The notes beneath the pieces were generated by a model. That model did not search any database and had not been told where the DNA came from. It saw nothing but the letters and a program-made list of their open reading frames with translations. From Fragilaria crotonensis (Eukaryota; Bacillariophyta; Fragilariophyceae; Fragilariales; Fragilariaceae), in contig JAKSYS010000046.1 of the NCBI GenBank assembly GCA_022925895.1, forward strand, positions 101,324 to 165,323: DNA of 64,000 nt, given 5' to 3'. Below are positions 19,677 through 52,024 of the stretch, piece by piece. Within the stretch, counting starts at the first letter, position 1, and the number at the start of each line of letters is the position of its first letter. The position numbers and the translations under genes are program-made.

Positions 19677-22596
19677 TCAGAGAGTTGGTTTCTCAGTAGG
19701 TCGTCGCCTCGGATTATGTTAAGGCTCTCTCGAAGTGGGTTTCTCAGTAGGTCGTCGCGTCTGATTGAGTGTAGGATCTGTGGCAGTGGGTTTCTCGGTA
19801 GGTCGTCGCGTCGAATCGAGTGTAGGATCTGTGGCAGTGGGTTTCTCGGTAGGTCGTCGCGTCGGATTGAGTGTAGGATCTGTGGCAGTGGGTTTCTCGG
19901 TAGGTCGTCGCGTCGGATTGAGTGTAGGATCTGTGGCAGTGGGTTTCTCGGTAGGTCGTCGCGTCGGATTGAGTGTAGGATCTGTGGCAGTGGGTTTCTC
20001 GGTAGGTCCTGTGGCGTGGGTTTGAGGTAGGACCTGTGGCAGTGGGTTTCGGTAGGTCGTCGCGTCGGATTGAGTGTAGGATCTGTGGCAGTGGGTTTCG
20101 GTAGGTCGTCGCGTCGGATTGAGTGTAGGATCTGTGGCAGTGGGTTTCGGTAGGTCGTCGCGTCGGATTGAGTGTAGGATCTGTGGCAGTGGGTTTCGGT
20201 AGGTCGTCGCGTCGGATTGATTGTAGGATCTGTGGCAGTGGGTTTCTCGGTAGGTCGTCGCGTCGGATTGAGTGTAGGATCTGTGGCAGTGGGCTTCTCG
20301 GTAGGTCGTTGCGTCGGATTGAGTGTAGGATCTGTGGCAGTGGGTTTCAGTAGGTCGTCGCGTCGGATTGAGTGTAGGATCTGTGGCAGTGGGTTTCTCG
20401 GTAGGTCGTTGCGTCGGATTGAGTGTAGGATCTGTGGCAGTGGGTTTCGGTAGGTCGTCGCGTCGAATCGAATGTAGGATCTGTGGCAGTGGGTTTCTCG
20501 GTAGGTCGTCGCGTCGAATCGAGTGTAGGATCTGTGGCAGTGGGTTTCGGTAGGTCGTCGCGTCTGATTGAGTGTAGGATCTGTGGCAGTGGGTTTCGGT
20601 AGGTCGTCGCGTCGGATTGAGTGTAGGATCTGTGGCAGTGGGTTTCAGTAGGTCGTCGCGTCGGATCGAGTGTAGGATCTGTGGCAGTGGGTTTCTCGGT
20701 AGGACCTGTGGCAGTGGGTTTCTCGGTAGGATCTGTGGCAGTGGGTTTCTCGGTAGGACCTGTGGCAGTGGGTTTCTCGGTAGGACTTGTGGCAGTGGGT
20801 TTCTCGGTAGGTCGTTGCGTCGGATTGAGTGTAGGATCTGTGGCAGTGGGTTTCTCGGTAGGTCGTCGCGTCGGATTGAGTGTAGGACCTGTGGCAGTGG
20901 GTTTCTCGGTAGGACCTGTGGCAGTGGGTTTCTCGGTAGGTCGTTGCGTCGGATTGAGTGTAGGATCTGTGGCAGTGGGCTTCTCGGTAGGTCGTCGCGT
21001 CGGATTGAGTGTAGGATCTGTGGCAGTGGGTTTCTCAGTAGGTCGTCGCGTCGGATTGAGTGTAGGATCTGTGGCAGTGGGCTTCTCGGTAGGTCGTCGC
21101 GTCGGATTGAGTGTAGGATCTGTGGCAGTGGGTTTCTCGGTAGGTCGTCGCGTCGGATTGAGTGTAGGATCTGTGGCAGTGGGTTTCTCGGTAGGTCGTT
21201 GCGTCGGATTGAGTGTAGGATCTGTGGCAGTGGGTTTCTCAGTAGGTCGTCGCGTCGGATTGCGTGTAGGATCTGTGGCAGTGGGTTTCTCGGTAGGTCG
21301 TTGCGTCGGATTGAGTGTAGGATCTGTGGCAGTGGGTTTCTCGGTAGGTCGTCGCGTCGAATCGAATGTAGGATCTGTGGCAGTGGGTTTCTCGGTAGGT
21401 CGTCGCGTCGAATCGAGTGTAGGATCTGTGGCAGTGGGTTTCTCGGTAGGTCGTCGCGTCGGATTGAGTGTAGGATCTGTGGCAGTGGGTTTCTCGGTAG
21501 GTCGTTGCGTCGGATTGAGTGTAGGATCTGTGGCAGTGGGTTTCTCGGTAGGTCGTCGCGTCGGATTGAGTGTAGGATCTGTGGCAGTGGGTTTCTCGGT
21601 AGGACCTGTGGCAGTGGGTTTCTCGGTAGGTCGTCGCGTCGGATTGAGTGTAGGATCTGTGGCAGTGGGTTTCTCGGTAGGTCGTCGCGTCGAATCGAGT
21701 GTAGGATCTGTGGCAGTGGGTTTCTCGGTAGGTCGTCGCGTCGGAATGAGTGTAGGATCTGTGGCAGTGGGTTTCTCGGTAGGTCGTCGCGTCGGATTGA
21801 GTGTAGGATCTGTGGCAGTGGGTGTCTCGGTAGGTCGTCGCGTCGGATTGAGTGTAGGACCTGTGGCAGTGGGTTTCTCGGTAGGTCGTCGCGTCGGATT
21901 GAGTGTAGGATCTGTGGCAGTGGGTTTCTCAGTAGGTCGTCGCGTCGAATCGAGTGTAGGATCTGTGGCAGTGGGTTTCTCGGTAGGACCTGTGGCAGTG
22001 GGTTTCTCAGTAGGTCGTCGCGTCGAATCGAGTGTAGGATCTGTGGCAGTGGGTTTCTCGGTAGGACCTGTGGCAGTGGGTTTCTCAGTAGGTCGTCGCG
22101 TCGGATTGAGTGTAGGATCTGTGGCAGTGGGTTTCTCGGTAGGTCGTTGCGTCGGATTGAGTGTAGGATCTGTGGCAGTGGGTTTCTCGGTAGGTCGTCG
22201 CGTCGAATCGAGTGTAGGATCTGTGGCAGTGGGTTTTTCGGTAGGTCGTCGCGTCGAATTGAGTGTAGGATCTGTGGCAGTGGGTTTCTCAGTAGGTCGT
22301 CGCGTCGAATTGAGTGTAGGACTGGCCGCTCTCACAGGAGCACCAGTTGGGGAAGTACCATCGGGCTCACAGGCGCAGGCACCAATGATAGATGGATAGA
22401 TTGCACAGTCTTCTGATGGAAGCTCACCGTTCAGGCCAGCCGTTTGCAAGTCTCCACAAGCGATCGGGTCAAGACCTGGAAATGCGAAGATTGCATCAGG
22501 TGCTGTAACGCTCTTGCCATCTCCGCAAACGGAGCACCCTTGTCCATTCGCAACAACGAAGAATACGGCAAGGAAAAGAGTTCCTCTGAAGGACAT
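19677..22596 (-). CDS. Secreted protein: one six-Cys domain plus a long Pro/Thr repeat tail (frame lost near the 3' end)
   Basis: ATG at 22596. A signal peptide (residues 1-18) precedes one Cys-rich domain with Cys at 21, 24, 47, 64, 74 and 76 (CSVCGDGKSVTAPDAIF, CGDLQTAGLNGE, CACEPD). The rest is a 17-residue repeat of the type PTLNPTRRPTEKPTATD, with shorter 9-residue PTEKPTATG units. The continuous frame gives 749 residues to TGA 20347. Units lacking two bases at about 20040-20650 switch the frame (HCHRSYTQSDATTY). The paralog at 50948-52024 ends KPTL-stop, and the matching end here is EKPTL then TGA 19677-19679, so that is the ancestral stop. Thr/Pro tails of this kind are usually O-glycosylated wall or mucilage proteins; that role is inferred. 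Confidence 0.8.
19690..22320. repeat. 51-bp tandem repeat array (about 50 units)
   Basis: The consensus unit reads on the plus strand as GGTAGGTCGTCGCGTCGGAT, then TGAGTGTAGGATCTGTGGCA, then GTGGGTTTCTC. Short 27-bp units (only the GTAGGACCTGTGGCAGTGGG part plus TTTCTCG) are mixed in. Because 51 is a multiple of 3, other frames stay open as well. About nine units (near 20046, 20095, 20144, 20193, 20343, 20442, 20541, 20590, 20641) lack the CT of TTTCTCGG and are 49 bp, and one linker near 20020 lacks two more bases. Confidence 0.95.
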
Positions 22597-22830: not shown

Positions 22831-23076
22831 AATTTCACAAAACACATTTTACATGTGATTCCTGATGGTTGTGTATGTTTAATTGCTGTATTAAACCCGC
22901 GGTATAATACCGCTGTATTATACTCCTACCATCCTTTTTTCCCTTGTATTTTAAATTGTACAATTGAAACACCCATTAGGGTTAAGGGTTTATTGTGACA
23001 CTGACGTTTTGGGTGCGATTGTCTTCAGAAGAAGGCTGTTCCTTGTGAAATTGCATCTTCCCGCAAAGATTCTGCC

Positions 23077-25985
23077 TATCGTTGTGTTTGTTTAATTGCT
23101 GTTTAAAACACCCTGTTTTAAACAGCTGTTTAAAACAACTTTTTTTTTTCAAAAAAACAATTTGTTTAATTGAAATCGTTGTTAGGGTTGAGGGTTATGC
23201 GTCATGACGCTGCGATCTTGATCCTCTACTATATCGTAATCATCTGGTTTGTTGCTTGTTTGCGTGAAATCCATACCAAAAACTACACAACCAAATCTTT
23301 CATCCGTCATCTGTCACATGAGAAACCATACGAAACCATGACGAGACCAAGGGATGCCATATGGGGGAACTTCGGAGATCACTTTCTTCCACTTGCTGCG
23401 GGAGACGACGATGCTGCGAGCCAAAAGACTAAGTATTGCAAGTGCAATGCTTGCAATGAACCAATCATTGCAGCTTGTACCCGGCTCAAAGATCACTGGG
23501 CGAGGTGCAAGAAGCGGCCAAGAGCCATTGGACAACTCGACGCAGGGTTCAAGCCTATTTCAAAGAAGAAGTACAAGTCCTCGTCCTCCTCAACCTCAAG
23601 CATCAGCAACTACCAATCATCATCAACATCTCGTGTGTCCAATATACTTTTGTCACAAGAAGGTGCCTTCTCTCCATCAGCTGGCGGCACTGTTGACACT
23701 AGTAGTCCTATGCAGAGCGAACTCCATGTCATCGTCAAGCTTCTTTTCTGGAGGTCGTCAGCATTTTGATTTTCTTAAGCCAGGAGAATCAGAGAAGCTG
23801 AATGTTTTGTTCGCTCGTGCAATTCATCGAACGGCCACGCCGTATAGCGCATTTGAACATCCAGCATGGAAAGATTTCTTTCGAGCCCTGCGAAGCTCTT
23901 ACCAGATACCTTGTCGCACGGCAATCGGCGGTAGCCTTATGAGGAACGAGTATGTTGAAACAATGAATGAAGTTCTTGTTGCTCTTGGTAAGCATCCATT
24001 GATTTGTTTTACTCTCGATGGTGCAACAAATCTTCAAGGTAAGCAAGTCATAAATATGATGGCTTGCGTGCCTAAGGCATACTTTTTGGAACATTTTACT
24101 ATGGAACTGCGGAGAGAGAGCGCAGCAAATCTACTTGAGAAATTACTGGATTGTAAGCTTCGGTTGTTGTCCTCCATACGAAAGCCGGCTCCGGGTTGTA
24201 CTCTCTCAAGGGATGCAGTTGCTGACATGATTCCTCACGACGAGGGTGATGATGTTGTAAATGTTGGCCTTCACGTTGCTGCCACTGGTGCCACTAACAA
24301 TAATCAGAGAACACTGCCACCTATACTGTGCTCCAGGAATGAGCACTTCATCAACCCCCCGATGTTCACCCTATGCAGTGACTCGCCAAGTGTTATGTCA
24401 AAGCTTCGCCGAGACTGCCTTGAAAGTAACGAGTTTATGTTTGCGTATGGATGTGCACCTCACGCTATCCACAACCTCTGCATGGATCTTGTTAAACACT
24501 TTGCAGGCGTGAAACAAGCATTGAAAGAAGTAGTGTTTATGGTAAAGGCGCTCAAGTCTTCGCATCTCCTTCTTCAGTTATTCGACAAGCTTTGCATTGA
24601 GAAGTACAAGACAACATATGTGCTCATCCTTTTCACGAAGACTCGATGGGGAACAGTCTACTACACAGCTCAACGAGCCACTGCGGTCAAGGCAGCATGC
24701 GCTTCTCTTCCTGGGGAGATCTTAAACTCCGACCTTGACATCGACATGAGCGAAGATCTGAAGCAACTTGTTACAGATCCAGCGTATTGGAAGCGTGTGG
24801 CGTCCATGGAAGCCCTTTTCAAGACCATTGCGTCATGTTTGACGTACCTGGAAGGCGATGAGGCAACATTCTCAGCAGTGTATGCATCGTTCATTGCAAT
24901 CAAATACCATTTGAGAAAGCTTGATGTTAGTGTGAGGGAGGGCTTGCATTTGACTGAAGCCGACATCAATCGTATGATGACGCTGACTCACCACCGTCTC
25001 TCAACAATCTACACAGAAGCTCATGCTCTTGCTTTTGCTACTGATCCTCTTTTTGACGACATGCGAACAAGAATCGCTGACGAGTTAGGTGAAGATTTCT
25101 TACAACTTGGAAAAGGTTCTATCATTTCACAATCGAAGGTTGCTCTCACTCGACTTTCCAAAGGTGATGAGAGCCAACGTCGAAAGATGTTCAGCGAGTT
25201 TGGTACCTATGTCCGAACCTCCAAGGATAACAACGGCGATTTCGAGGACTCAGAAATGAAACCATCTGAACTGTGGACTCTCTGCGATGATTCCGAGTAC
25301 GGTTCGATCAAGCACCTGCTCTGTGCTGTGCATAGAAATCCTGCAGGAGCAAGCGGAGGCGAACGAAACCACAAGGCTGCAAAGTATGTTCATCGTGCAT
25401 TGAGGGTGCGGTTGGGCCAGGCAAACATCGAGAGAGGTACTGCTATCCTCTTCAACGCGAAGCAGCTCAACCGCCAACTGGCTGTGACACGAGATTCAAA
25501 ATTCTGCAAATGGATGGCGCAGCTTGGATGTAATCCTACTCTTGCTGCTGCTGAAGAGGAGATTATATCAGTCCCTGATGAGGGTGATGACATCTTTGGC
25601 TCTGAGGAGGAGAACGGAAACTTCGACGAGGAGTTCAATCAAGTTGACGTGTCTGGCGGAGTTGATAACATTGCTGATTGTGAGCTATTTCCTGTCGAGG
25701 ATTATGAGATTGCTGACGAGCGGCTTGACAACAATGCTCCCGCAGTACCACAAGTTGCTGCTGTCCCTCTTTAATGTTTTTTAAGTTATATGCATTCACT
25801 TTCAATCTTCTTGCATGCGATGCTTGTATTCCTCCGTCTGTGAATCGGTGAATGGGACAAGGAGTCAACAACAGGAGGAGCACTGGGTACGGTACACTGG
25901 TGCTGTTTAAAACAAAGCTGTTTAAAACTGTTTTAAACAATATAAAACAATTTCAAAATCTGAAATTGTTTAAAACACAACGATA
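23077..25985 (+). mobile_element. Inner hAT element nested in its relative (2909 bp)
   Basis: Inverted termini TATCGTTGTGTTT at 23077-23089 and its complement at 25973-25985, flanked by the exact 8-bp duplication ATTCTGCC (23069-23076, 25986-25993). Subterminal GTTTTAAAC/GTTTAAAAC words occur at both ends, where the outer element has GTATAATAC words: the two families share architecture but use different subterminal words. Confidence 0.95.
23338..25774 (+). pseudogene. hAT transposase (BED finger, DUF659 type), inner element, one frameshift
   Basis: ATG 23338 opens a frame with a BED-type zinc finger (CNACNEPIIAACTRL then HWARC) and a basic/Ser-rich linker, ending at 23769. The main frame takes over at about 23720 and runs to TAA 25774. 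It contains FFSGGRQHFDF, RAIHRTATPYSAFEHPAWKD, CFTLDGATNLQGKQ (probable catalytic Asp), CSDSPSVM and the C-terminal NPAGASGGERNHKAAK. An intron does not fit the frames at the switch; a one-base shift does. The protein would be about 810 residues and cuts and pastes the element. Apart from the shift it looks intact, so this copy may be recently active or simply misread at one base. Confidence 0.85.
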
Positions 25986-26041
25986 ATTCTGCCGCGTAGA
26001 TCAATAGGGCACACATATAACTGACTCGATGCGAATCTGAA

Positions 26042-28371
26042 ATGCGAAACAAAAGTGCTATCTGGTCGAAGTTCGGTGCGGTGTACAAGCCTCCTGGCGG
26101 TGTCGATGGCGATGATGGCAACAAATCAAAGTACTGTAAGTGCTCAGCTTGTGAAGAGCCCGTTATTGCAGCTTCTGGTCGTTTGAGGGATCATTGGGAG
26201 AAGTGCAAGAAGCGTCCGCGAGCAATAGGACTACTGGACGCCGGGTTTCAACCATCACGAAAGAAGGCACCAGCGAAGAAGCCCCGACATGACAATGACT
26301 TGTCACCAGAAGGTACTGCATGCTCCTCCTCTGCCAGAAGCACGTGGTCTAACATGACAAAAGCGCAGTTGGGCTTGGGGACCTTCTCTCCATCCGGCGA
26401 CACTGTAGGCGATTCATCCTTCTTCTCCGGTGGTCGCCAACACTTTGATTCTCTCAAGGCGGGTGAAGCACAGAAACTAAACAAGTTGTTCTCACGTGCA
26501 ATACATCGCACTGCTATGCCTTATTCTGCATTCGAGCATCCAGCTTGGAAGCACTTTTTCCGTTCGCTGCGAGGGTGCTATCAGTTGCCAACTCGATCGC
26601 AGATTGGTGGTGAGCTCATGGTACATGAATACACGGAAACTATGAATGAAGTCCTTCTCTCCCTTGCCAAACAACAGCTTATATGCTTCACACTTGATGG
26701 TGCCACAAATTTGCAAGGTAAGCAGATCATCAATATGATGGCATGCATACCAAAGGCCTTCTTTCTGGAACACTTCACAATGGTTCTTCGTCGGGAGAGC
26801 GCTGCAAATCTGCTCGAGAAACTGCTCGATTGTAAGCTACGACTCCTTGGTTCGATTCGTATGCCAGCTCCAGGTTTTTCCCTCTCCCGTGATATTGTTG
26901 TGATTGGTGAGGGTGATGATGTTGTTCCGCATGAGGTCTGCGCGACAAGGAACGAATACTTCCTGAATCCGCCAATGTTCACGTTCTGCAGTGACTCTCC
27001 GAGTGTGATGTTGAAACTACGAAAGGACTGCCTTGAGTTAAAAGAATTTGTCTTTGCGTAGCTACGGTTGTGCTCCGCATTCTATTCACAACCTCTGCAT
27101 GGATCTCATCAAGCATTTTCATGGAGTGACACATGTTCTTAAACAAATCTTGTTCATGGTGAAGTCACTGAAATCGTCGCATCTGTTGCTGCAATTGTTT
27201 GATAAGCTGTGTATGGAGAAATACAAGAAGACATATATCCTCATTCTATTCACGAAGACTCGATGGGGGACAGTGTACTATGCCGCACAACGTGCAAGCC
27301 TTGTCAAGACTGCCTGTGCATCTTTGCCTGGAGAAATAATGAATTCTGATCTCGACATCGACATGACAGACAAGCTGAAGACGCTTGTAACTGATCCAAC
27401 ATATTGGAAGGGTGTTGCAGCCTTCGAAGTTCTATTTCGGACTATCAGTTCTTGTCTGGCCTACCTTGAAGGTGATGAGGCGACGTTCTCAGCTGTGTAC
27501 GCTTGCTTTGTTGCTATCAAGTACCATCTAAAGAAGCTGGATGCGACTGTCAAGGAAAGCCTGAGTCTCAATGATGATGATATTGATAAAATGATAACAC
27601 TTACTCACCATCGCCTCTCAACGATCTATACAGAGGCACATGCACTTGCCTTTGCAACGGATCCGATGTTCACTGAAATGCGTACCAGGATTGCGGCCGA
27701 ATTCGGTGAAGAGTTCCTTCAACTCGGAAAGCCTGCGATCATTCAACAAGCCAAGACTGCTCTCACTCGTCTTGCTTCCGGCAATGATGATCTTCGTCGA
27801 AAGATGTTCAGCGAGTTCGCTACCTACATCACAAGATACAAGGATGGTGACGCTGCTGTTTCAAGTCATGATGAGAAGGGCTTTGATGACTTTGAGGACA
27901 CAATGATGAAGCCTGCGGAACTCTGGACGCTGTGCGATGATGCGGACTATGGCAACATCAAGCATCTTCTCTCGGCACTTCATCGAAATCCAGCTGGAGC
28001 AAGTGGGGGCGAGCGAAATCACAAGTCTGCAAAGCATGTTCACAGTCGCATACGTGCTCGTTTGGGCACTGCAAGGGTTGAATCTGGGACTGCCATTCAT
28101 TTCAACGCCAAGCAGCTCATCCGTCAAATGACTACAACAAGAGACACTCGGTTCTGCAAGTGGCTTCGACATCTCGGTGCCGCATTTCGCTGCTGCTGAA
28201 GATGTGGACACTGATGTTGATGCTGAAGAACAACAAGTAGAGGAGGATGAGATGGAGCACGGCACAGAGAGCAATGATGTTGATGAATTCAATCAGCTCG
28301 ACTTGACCGGAGGCGTCGATGCAATTACTGATGAGGACCTCTTTGTGCAGACGAGGGACGAGGATGAGTAG
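26042..28371 (+). pseudogene. hAT transposase (BED finger, DUF659 type), outer element, two lesions
   Basis: ATG 26042. Same domain order as the inner copy: BED finger (CSACEEPVIAASGRL then HWEKC), FFSGGRQHFDSL, RAIHRTAMPYSAFEHPAWK, CFTLDGATNLQGKQ, CSDSPSVM. Four extra bases (TAGC, 27059-27062) between FVFA and YGCAPH stop the frame at 27061. The rest runs in another frame from 27063 to about 28180. A second shift at LGA/AAFRCC moves it to the acidic tail (EDVDTDVDAEEQQVEEDEME) ending at 28371. The inner copy reads straight through both points, so these are lesions of this copy. Confidence 0.85.
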
Positions 28372-28703
28372 ATGGTGCTAGTAGTGAAAGTGATTGTCTC
28401 TAGTACTACTAATCCTACACCGTAACTTTCATCAGCAAGAAAGCAATAGTAGCAACTCTAGAATCCCGTATGAGTCTCGCCATCATGGTTGGCATAGCAC
28501 GCACGAGATCATAAAGGAAGCAATACTCCGAGTATGACATTATGATGCCTGAAAATTGTACTTTTACTCTACTTGTTCTTTACTCTACTACCTAGTAGAC
28601 TACTTGACACCGTACGGTAGTGCTGTATTATACCATGTGGTATAATACGGTATAATACAGCCCCCCTCTGAATTATTTGTTTAATACACAACGATATTCC
28701 TGA

Positions 28704-29428
28704 CACATGCAATTTTTCCTGTGTATCGATATTTTTTTGTGTTTTGTGTCACGATGTCATCCTAATAACGAATGAAACCTGATACGCATTCTGGGTTGTG
28801 TGTAATGTACTTGTAGGCCGTCCTAATGAACACTGAAATCAAATTGTGCATTCGTCTTCCGACTTAGACATACGACCATCAAGTCAAATGTTTCACCATG
28901 TCATCGTGTCAGTTCATCACCTTGATCCTCATGTATTGACGTGCCGAGAAGTTGAAGAGACGTCGCCGCCTCTGTCCCTTCAAGACGCCGTCCCTTCTCA
29001 TTCGGAATCGTGAACGACGATCATGTCGACGAGCGACATATGGTGCAACGGCATCATCATCGTCGTCGTTGCTTCCCATCAAGATCGTGCCTCCAGCTGG
29101 TTTGGCCTCACCTCCACATCATACTTCCATTCGGTTGCCATGAACAACAAAAAATACCATACACCGATCTATGCTCAAGGTGCCCCCTCATCACGATGTC
29201 ACAAAGACAAGGAATTGGTTTCACTCCGCATGAAGTCCATTTCCTCTTGGCTTCTTCAGTACTGGTTCGAAAAGAAGATGCCTGCTGGTGTTCGTCAAGA
29301 AGAAGATGGGACAATGAATTCTTTGATGTATGAAACGACGAACTTATGCATACTCCTCATCGAGAAAAAATTTAATCTCCTATGTTTTTATTGTAGACAA
29401 ATGGATGTAGCACAACATTTGCAAAAGG
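28704..29428. other. Intergenic, no gene seen
   Basis: A run of overlapping short plus-strand ORFs with no recognisable features. Separates the hAT element from the first 3.3-kb repeat. Confidence 0.35.
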
Positions 29429-50947: not shown

Positions 50948-52024
50948 TTAGAGAGTGGGCTTGAGAGTAGGTCGTCGCGTCGGCTTGCGTGTAGGACTTC
51001 TGGCGGTTGTATTCTGTGTAGGTCGACGGGTCGGCTTGCGTGTAGGACCTCTGGCAGTGGGTTTCTGAGTAGGTCGTCGCGTCGGCTTGCGTGTAGGACC
51101 TCTGGCAGTGGGTTTCTGAGTAGGTCGTCGCGTCGGCTTGCGTGTAGGAACACTGGCTGTTAGTTTCTGAGTAGGTCGACGGGTAGGCTTGAGAGCAGGA
51201 CTGCTGGCCGTTCGTATAGGAGCACCAGCTGGGGAAGTTCCACTGTCGGGCGCACAAGCGCAGGCACCAATAAAAGCTGGAAGGACTAGACAGCTTTCTA
51301 ATAAAATCTCACCGTTCAGGCCAGCCGTTTGCAATTCTCCACAACCGATGGGGTTAACACCTGGAAATGCGAAGATTGCATCAGGTGCTGTAACGCTCTT
51401 GCCATCTCCGCAAATGGAGCACCCTTGTCCTGGGGTAGTTGGCTTGAGAGCAGGACTGGCCGTTCCCATAGGAGCACGGGTTGGGGAAGTGCCACTGTCG
51501 GGCGCACAAGCGCAGACATCGATGAGAGGTGGAAGGGCTGCACAGCCATCTAATGGTATCTCGCCATTTCGGCCAGCCGTTTGCAATCTTCCACAAGCGA
51601 TCGGGTCAAAACCTGGAAATTCGAAGATTGCATCAGGTGCTGTAACGCTCTTGCCACCTCCGCAAATGGAGCACTGTCCTGGGGTAGTTGGCTTGACTAG
51701 GGTAGTTGGCTTGAGAGTGGGTCGACGGGTCGGCTTGAGAGCAGGACTGGCCGTTCCCATAGGAGCACGGGTTGGGGAAGTGCCACTGTCGGGCGCACAA
51801 GCGCAGGCAGCAATTAAAGCTGGAAGGACTGGACAGTTCTCTAATGAAATCTCGCCATTTCGGCCAGCCGTTTGCAATTCTCCACAACCGATGGGGTCAA
51901 CACCTGGAAATGCGAAGATTGCATCAGGTGCTGTAATGCTCTTGCCATCTCCGCAAATGGAGCACCCTTGTCCATTCGCAACAGCGAAGAATACGGCAAG
52001 GAAAAGGGTTCCTCTACATGACAT
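50948..52024 (-). CDS. Secreted protein with three six-Cys domains and a Pro/Thr tail
   Basis: 358 residues from ATG 52024. A signal peptide (FLAVFFAVANG) precedes three copies of the domain CSICGxGKSxTAPDAIF ... CGxLQTAGxNGE ... C ... CAC, at about residues 20-76, 116-170 and 205-260. They are joined by Pro/Thr linkers (SGTSPTRAPMGTASPALK). The tail has about five 17-residue units of the type RKPTRRPTQKPTARGPT and ends KPTL-stop. It is a paralog of the 19677-22596 gene, which has one such domain but ten times the repeats. The frame is intact. Likely extracellular (wall or mucilage), inferred from signal peptide and Thr/Pro tail. Confidence 0.85.
   Translation of the reverse strand: MSCRGTLFLAVFFAVANGQGCSICGDGKSITAPDAIFAFPGVDPIGCGELQTAGRNGEISLENCPVLPALIAACACAPDSGTSPTRAPMGTASPALKPTRRPTLKPTTLVKPTTPGQCSICGGGKSVTAPDAIFEFPGFDPIACGRLQTAGRNGEIPLDGCAALPPLIDVCACAPDSGTSPTRAPMGTASPALKPTTPGQGCSICGDGKSVTAPDAIFAFPGVNPIGCGELQTAGLNGEILLESCLVLPAFIGACACAPDSGTSPAGAPIRTASSPALKPTRRPTQKLTASVPTRKPTRRPTQKPTARGPTRKPTRRPTQKPTARGPTRKPTRRPTQNTTARSPTRKPTRRPTLKPTL

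Follow-up and report, generated by a model that had tools for sequence, protein, structure and literature searches.

Architecture of the nested locus

The window, i.e. the complete analysed stretch of 64,000 nucleotides, contains at positions 22866 to 28696 two divergent hAT elements, one split by the other in an ordinary nested arrangement. Both are bordered by target-site duplications (TSDs) and carry short palindromic words near their ends, GTATWATAC in the outer and GTTTWAAAC in the inner element. The features of the locus are:

22859..22865, no strand: outer left TSD remnant TTCCTGA, seven of eight bases, the last base missing
22866..28696, + strand: outer hAT element of the GTATWATAC subfamily, interrupted by the inner insertion
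22866..22925, + strand: outer left end, words at offsets 22 (mixed, GTATTAAAC), 36 and 49
23069..23076, no strand: inner left TSD ATTCTGCC
23077..25985, + strand: inner hAT element, GTTTWAAAC subfamily, complete at both ends
23077..23136, + strand: left end of the inner element with TIR TATCGTTGTG; word offsets 24, 38 and 51
23317..23730, + strand: inner transposase, 5' part with a BED-like C-x2-C...H-x3-C finger (by eye), first frame
23738..25771, + strand: remainder of the inner transposase with the catalytic and C-terminal part, an open stretch of 678 codons in a frame that differs from that of the finger
25895..25985, + strand: inner right end, words at 9, 47, 57 and 72 from the tip
25986..25993, no strand: inner right TSD ATTCTGCC
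26042..27061, + strand: first section (part 1) of the outer transposase ORF, 339 aa, comprising a BED-like finger and the first catalytic part
27048..28199, + strand: outer transposase ORF part 2, 383 aa, second frame change near its end
28610..28696, + strand: outer right end, words at 9 (GTATTAAAC), 38, 48 and 63 from the tip
28697..28704, no strand: outer right TSD TTCCTGAC, corrected register

The nested pair described in the initial annotation of this DNA was borne out. The inner element (23077-25985, + strand) measures 2909 bp, exhibits the TIR TATCGTTGTGTTT and is complete at both ends, and its TSD ATTCTGCC is a perfect 8-bp duplication present at 23069-23076 and 25986-25993. Its insertion point is located 211 bp inward from the left end of the outer element. 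In the related element C175, blocks that match the outer left end (bases 7-126) and the outer body are separated by about 156 bp without any insert, and the body block is homologous to the outer element from base 49 of the portion to the right of the inner one. This adjacency is indicative of an outer element that was a single unit before the inner one landed. The GTTTWAAAC-type inner element inserted at this 211-bp position, upstream of the transposase ORF of the GTATWATAC-type outer element. A haplotig (C852, locus L029, 1-1514) departs at the window equivalent of 26680 into DNA that is unmatched in the window. Its interpretation as a second transposition was rejected, because the similarity crosses the element end and extends 2.5 kb into the flank at 99%; the haplotig is thus an allele or a recent duplication.

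The boundaries of the outer element had to be corrected. Complete sibling elements have the tips TATCG, TATGG or TATTG with the matching complement at the other end, which places the outer right end at 28696 and identifies TTCCTGAC as the right TSD. The outer left words are found at 22, 36 and 49, exactly 2 below the family addresses of 24, 38 and 51, and 3 bp have been lost at the left junction, comprising the eighth base of the TSD and bases 1 and 2 of the TIR. A target-site matrix established from 33 other insertions, with the outer element held out, assigns +8.3 to the shifted register, a score that is attained by 0.016% of the window positions on one strand, versus -12.0 for the earlier register. 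Based on these three agreeing lines (sibling tips, word addresses and held-out target matrix) the outer TSD is TTCCTGAC, and the previously proposed register ATTCCTGA was rejected as a one-base mis-register. The length of 2913 bp changes together with the register: subtraction of the inner insertion and of one 8-bp duplication copy leaves 2914 bp. Since the first two left TIR bases are missing, the outer element is probably immobile. A short GTAT-type copy, which is present with an identical flank in two contigs (L048 in C876, L051 in C442), has a left junction seemingly without TSD and TIR bases, much like that of the outer element.

Just to the right of the outer element, a large direct repeat occupies about 29.4-32.7 kb and 39.0-42.4 kb of the window (99-100% identity in matched blocks, about 9.62 kb apart); it represents either a young duplication or the long repeats of a large element. 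On the other side, a minisatellite with about 52 copies of a 51-bp unit (19683-22321) stops roughly 0.5 kb short of the outer element, and a related 51-bp unit reappears at 50965-51217.

Transposases and their relationship to hAT

In the assembly, the reading frame of the inner transposase is interrupted at about 23720-23745, and that of the outer transposase changes twice. The C852 haplotype is open where the window copy first breaks, yet broken elsewhere; an open frame of 801 aa is located in C175. C175 was found by searching the genome (62.1 Mb in 881 contigs); the genome searches scored 40 of 92 candidates in one case and 65 of 106 in another. One of the contigs encodes a form-ID-like Rubisco large chain, which aligns with PDB chains along all of its 490 aa, the best of them from diatoms, so that the host is probably a diatom or a close relative. 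Over 377 aa, the outer and C175 transposases share 82% of their residues; the inner one is 68-71% identical to either. For the finger-plus-linker piece the corresponding values are 65% and 46-51%; outer part 1 including finger and linker is 69% identical to C175 over 361 aa. The difference is small in the first catalytic piece of 213 codons, in which the outer protein is 81% identical to C175 and 78% to the inner one. Nonsynonymous divergence is higher in the finger-plus-linker piece (dN 0.27-0.55) than in the catalytic parts (0.11-0.21). The latter evolved under constraint, with a dN/dS of 0.05-0.07 at a dS of 2.0-2.8 in the three of five comparisons that were computable, the other two being saturated. 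Outgroup rooting of the inner versus the outer/C175 lineage was undecided, with nine sites in the outer/C175 state and 14 in the inner state.

The elements appear to represent a divergent hAT clade, and this assignment, already made in the initial annotation, is supported indirectly by a homologous protein and by the type of the TSDs. When the genome was searched with the inner protein, C843 was recovered at 8.8e-6, and for this protein Pfam reports DUF659 (2.4e-16) and Dimer_Tnp_hAT (2e-15). A family HMM of four sequences matches both C843 pieces (8e-9 and 5e-7; none of 1000 shuffles) and has no match in L099 or L100, which are further hAT proteins encoded in this genome. The transposase core of C843 is colinear with that of the nested pair, including the first D region, TRW and the ERN motif; the GC..H motif also aligns, without significance of its own. 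Identity is only about 19-28%, and C843 scores in Pfam whereas the family of the nested pair does not: no Pfam family was found at E<=1 for four pieces from the window and none at E<=10 for C175. Given the homology to a DUF659/hAT-C transposase, we read this as a limit of sensitivity. The C-x2-C...H-x3-C finger pattern was recognized by eye in the inner, outer and C175 proteins and receives no Pfam score. Sequence searches of the PDB with a single protein and with a profile gave no meaningful match (lowest E 1 and 0.76), Rfam at gathering scores gave 0 matches on the window, and among viral contigs there were five pattern matches and no relatives.

The duplications are those of hAT elements: they comprise 8 bp, exact in 30 of 33 elements and matching at seven of eight bases in three, and follow the pattern nTnnnnAn (T2 in 21/33, A7 in 22/33; pooled binomial 1.4e-11). 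Short TIRs with TATCG, TATGG or TATTG tips and matching inverted ends are present in complete copies. The tips of Ac and hobo are of the CAGGG/TAGGG type, unlike those of the elements investigated here.

Further copies in the genome

Inner-type ends are found in at least 25 short copies of 564-617 bp with distinct flanks (exact TSD in 24, seven of eight bases in one). They average 98% identity to their consensus at a mean pairwise identity of 97% and hence constitute one family, whose words are not independent. In one additional short copy (L059), the flanks do not match. Among the copies examined, GTAT-type elements with both ends and an 8/8 TSD are located in C871, C212, C412, C437 and C748, and those of C408 and C389 have both ends and a 7/8 TSD. 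The 12.2-kb copy in C38 is of the C175 type (7/8) and contains internal long ORFs that are copia-like by eye. C175 itself has words at the left end, and a right end was not found. C175 was obtained by sequence homology, C871 by similarity to the outer left end with its words included, and word pairs led to C212, C412, C437, C748, C408, C389 and C38. That C871 and these word-fetched elements have words at all is therefore partly the result of selection, which applies less to their addresses.

The four GTATWATAC-type elements of C212, C412, C437 and C748 (L069, L070, L071 and L072) measure 4.2-6.8 kb and have perfect 8-bp TSDs. They harbor a tandem array of a roughly 190-bp unit in higher-order pairs of about 376-379 bp, with 3.7-7 pairs per element, so that hAT ends here carry a satellite array.

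Spelling and addresses of the subterminal words

The words are 9-bp palindromes present at both ends of each element of the nest. The proposal that the two members of the nest use different words at both of their own ends was confirmed, with GTTTWAAAC in the inner and GTATWATAC in the outer element, where five of seven words have this spelling and the other two are GTATTAAAC. Counting GTNTWANAC within the terminal 130 bp, we found T3/A7 in 193 of 194 words of the 26 GTTT-type elements and A3/T7 in 37 of 39 words of the seven GTAT-type elements. A3/T7 is also the state of four of five words in C38 and of all three at the left end of C175. The mixed word GTATTAAAC occurs in the outer element, C389 and C38. 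A group of 17 loci of about 1.1 kb (L031-L047) with transposase remnants and the tip TATGGATGTGTTTG exhibits mixed and altered words that resemble an intermediate between the two spellings; the flank is shared in at least four of these loci.

At one end, 20 of the 26 GTTT-type elements have their words exactly 24, 38 and 51 bp from the tip. The same addresses are exact in C175, C871, C437 and C408 and shifted by 2 in the outer element. The other end mainly uses 9, 37-38, 47-48, 57-58 and 72-73, which are incompletely filled in each element, and there are a few extra addresses, e.g. 63 in the outer element. A comparison of the left-type end of the inner element with those of the outer element, C175, C871 and C437 shows identity at 18/18 of the six fixed letters per word in each case. 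Letters 3 and 7 match at 1/6, 0/6, 0/6 and 0/6 positions, and the letters outside the words at 17/23, 10/23, 15/23 and 10/23, respectively. Letters 3 and 7 hence change together between the two spellings, and the other letters are constant. Genome-wide, GTATWATAC yields 66 word pairs per strand versus 0 for the reversed control, and GTTTWAAAC 188 versus 3; the first 100 listed places were inspected singly.

A palindromic target site apparently shared by the elements

Alignment of 33 insertion sites (26 GTTT-type, 7 GTAT-type) yields a palindrome, about TGnGTCnnGACnCA, with the consensus ~TGn[GTCnnGAC]nCA, in which the brackets enclose the duplication. Within the latter, G1 is found in 17/33, C or T at position 3 in 28/33, G6 in 20/33 and C8 in 18/33 sites. 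In the flanks, G at -2 is present in 21/33 and C at +2 in 19/33 (pooled 40/66), T at -3 in 15/33 and A at +3 in 18/33. The palindrome is an extension of the known hAT pattern nTnnnnAn and seems to be common to both subfamilies, as judged by eye from the seven GTAT-type sites. The logo thus documents a target preference, but not the one for ATTC that had been deduced from the likeness of the two TSDs in the nest: a single TSD among the 33 begins with ATTC, and it is the inner element's own. The inner and outer octamers match at 4/8 positions in the earlier and 5/8 in the corrected register, and a similar likeness is found among the 33 TSDs, where 182 of 528 pairs match at four or more positions and 70 of 528 at five or more. 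An ATTC preference was accordingly rejected.

The logo leaves out several copies. No matching flanks or duplication were found for L059 (C481), C62:30245 (with tips) and C151 (with paired words), and a right end was not found in C175 nor, by the scan, in the 17 loci of the 1.1-kb family. Damaged or interrupted copies are those of C114:33746, C178:37544, C180 and C54, and those of C876 and C442 combine a damaged tip with the same flank. C38 (12 kb, 7/8) contains another element, C626 and C173 represent one decayed copy in two contigs (7/8), and C405 is a fragment. Single ends are located in C67, C77, C195, C242, C361, C777, C824, C783, C218 and C23, and C114:40294 and C503 have words but the tip was not found. 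The outer element was held out as test.

Association of words and transposases

In the only three long copies found, the words sort with the transposase, since the outer element and C175 have GTATWATAC and the inner element GTTTWAAAC; the sorting is based on these three and on one decayed 5' fragment (C405). The TIR tips sort otherwise, as TATSGTTGTG is common to the inner and outer elements and C175 has TATGGAATTG. The non-word letters of the outer left end are likewise nearer to the inner element (17/23) than to C175 (11/23), and GTTTWAAAC words are paired with the different tip TATGGATGCG in C218. This single hAT end (L094, about 1486-1603) has its words at 24/38/51; a partner end was not found and the 8-mer of the flank does not recur within 3 kb. 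The expectation that other copies would show words sorting with the type of transposase thus holds for the three long copies but does not extend to the tips. The view of the words as binding sites of two subfamilies agrees with the observed pattern of addresses, purity and letters 3/7, and the binding itself is a prediction.

At positions -6/-5 from the zinc histidine, the finger has Cys-Thr in the inner protein and Ser-Gly in the outer and C175 proteins. The residues at these offsets in Hermes, T65 (through its main chain) and S66, are involved in contacts with the bases according to a study of that element (PMC10368747). The difference at -6/-5 may be regarded as a lead, i.e. a candidate for the protein change that matches the word switch.

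Probable coexistence of two subfamilies with their own words

The most likely explanation, to which we assign a probability of about 0.68, is that two diverged hAT subfamilies of one clade coexist in this genome, each with its own BED-finger words and presumably without cross-mobilization. Their divergence would be ancient. Each transposase is predicted to bind ordered 9-bp palindromic words at fixed distances from each tip via its N-terminal BED-like zinc finger, and the tips would be cut and joined, with an 8-bp stagger, to the palindromic target. The layout would have been kept in both subfamilies, with a joint switch of letters 3 and 7 (GTTTWAAAC versus GTATWATAC). As the layout was retained while the spelling changed, each transposase would mobilize its own set, including the non-autonomous copies, with the spelling setting the specificity. 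A more far-reaching version must be treated as tentative, and we consider it somewhat less probable than its opposite: one hAT clade would have been split into two orthogonal systems by recoding all words through one symmetric substitution per half-site, with layout, target choice and chemistry unchanged; the matching protein change would be a small one at positions -6/-5, where the recognition helix of the BED finger has its tip.

It is unlikely, but deserves attention, that the words bind transposase and a single enzyme, e.g. the one encoded by the 801-aa frame of C175, moves both sets, the spelling being homogenized by recombination or conversion between the ends. Mixed words in the outer element, C389, C38 and the 1.1-kb family would fit such a history, as would the TIR tips shared by the inner and outer elements and the target palindrome that, by eye, both sets seem to use. 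The inner element, the sole long GTTTWAAAC-type copy found, is moreover frame-broken as assembled, and its short relatives are 98% identical to their consensus; an unbroken inner-type allele may, however, be absent from the draft assembly. The near-complete purity of the words within elements, at both ends and across several TIR types, argues against a common enzyme. Even less probable is a role of the words outside transposition, e.g. as a host regulator site, or their origin by AT-rich drift spread by copying. AT-rich palindromes can arise in other ways, but tip-relative addresses are kept across lineages whose synonymous sites are at or near saturation, the reversed controls give few or no word pairs, and BED-bound subterminal repeats have a precedent in Hermes. 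Finally, an assembly chimera of two unrelated copies is very improbable given the perfect TSD and complete ends of the inner element, the insert-free adjacency in C175 and the outer TSD recovered on both far sides, even if the C852 haplotig spans only the outer right part with its flank and so gives no confirmation of the nest.

The nearest known counterpart is Hermes, a hAT element of Musca domestica, as it is described in the same study (PMC10368747). In Hermes, the subterminal repeats are bound by CCHC BED fingers, binding is cooperative at a pair of repeats in a quasi-palindrome, and correct phasing is critical. Common features are 8-bp nTnnnnAn targets, asymmetric ends and subterminal repeats; the putative CCHC BED finger, its predicted binding of the repeats and a dependence on phasing would be the counterparts here. 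Hermes uses the site AAG(T/C), and just two of its repeat pairs form palindromes, whereas most ends of the present elements have two to five full 9-bp palindromes in regular order and in two spellings within one genome, and the target preference extends 3 bp into the flanks. Short non-autonomous copies with hAT ends also exist as hAT MITEs, of which the Drosophila element mar (PMC3517528) is an example; the short copies investigated here have subfamily-specific palindromic words. No such word switch was reported in the literature found by a search of limited coverage.

A joint change of specificity in a transposase and in the many sites of each element is hard to study. Two naturally occurring forms that agree in layout and differ cleanly in spelling, together with the few finger residues singled out, would make such a switch directly testable. 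Annotation of this divergent hAT clade, which the Pfam scans used here missed, may furthermore rely on the extended target palindrome and on the common word addresses as markers.
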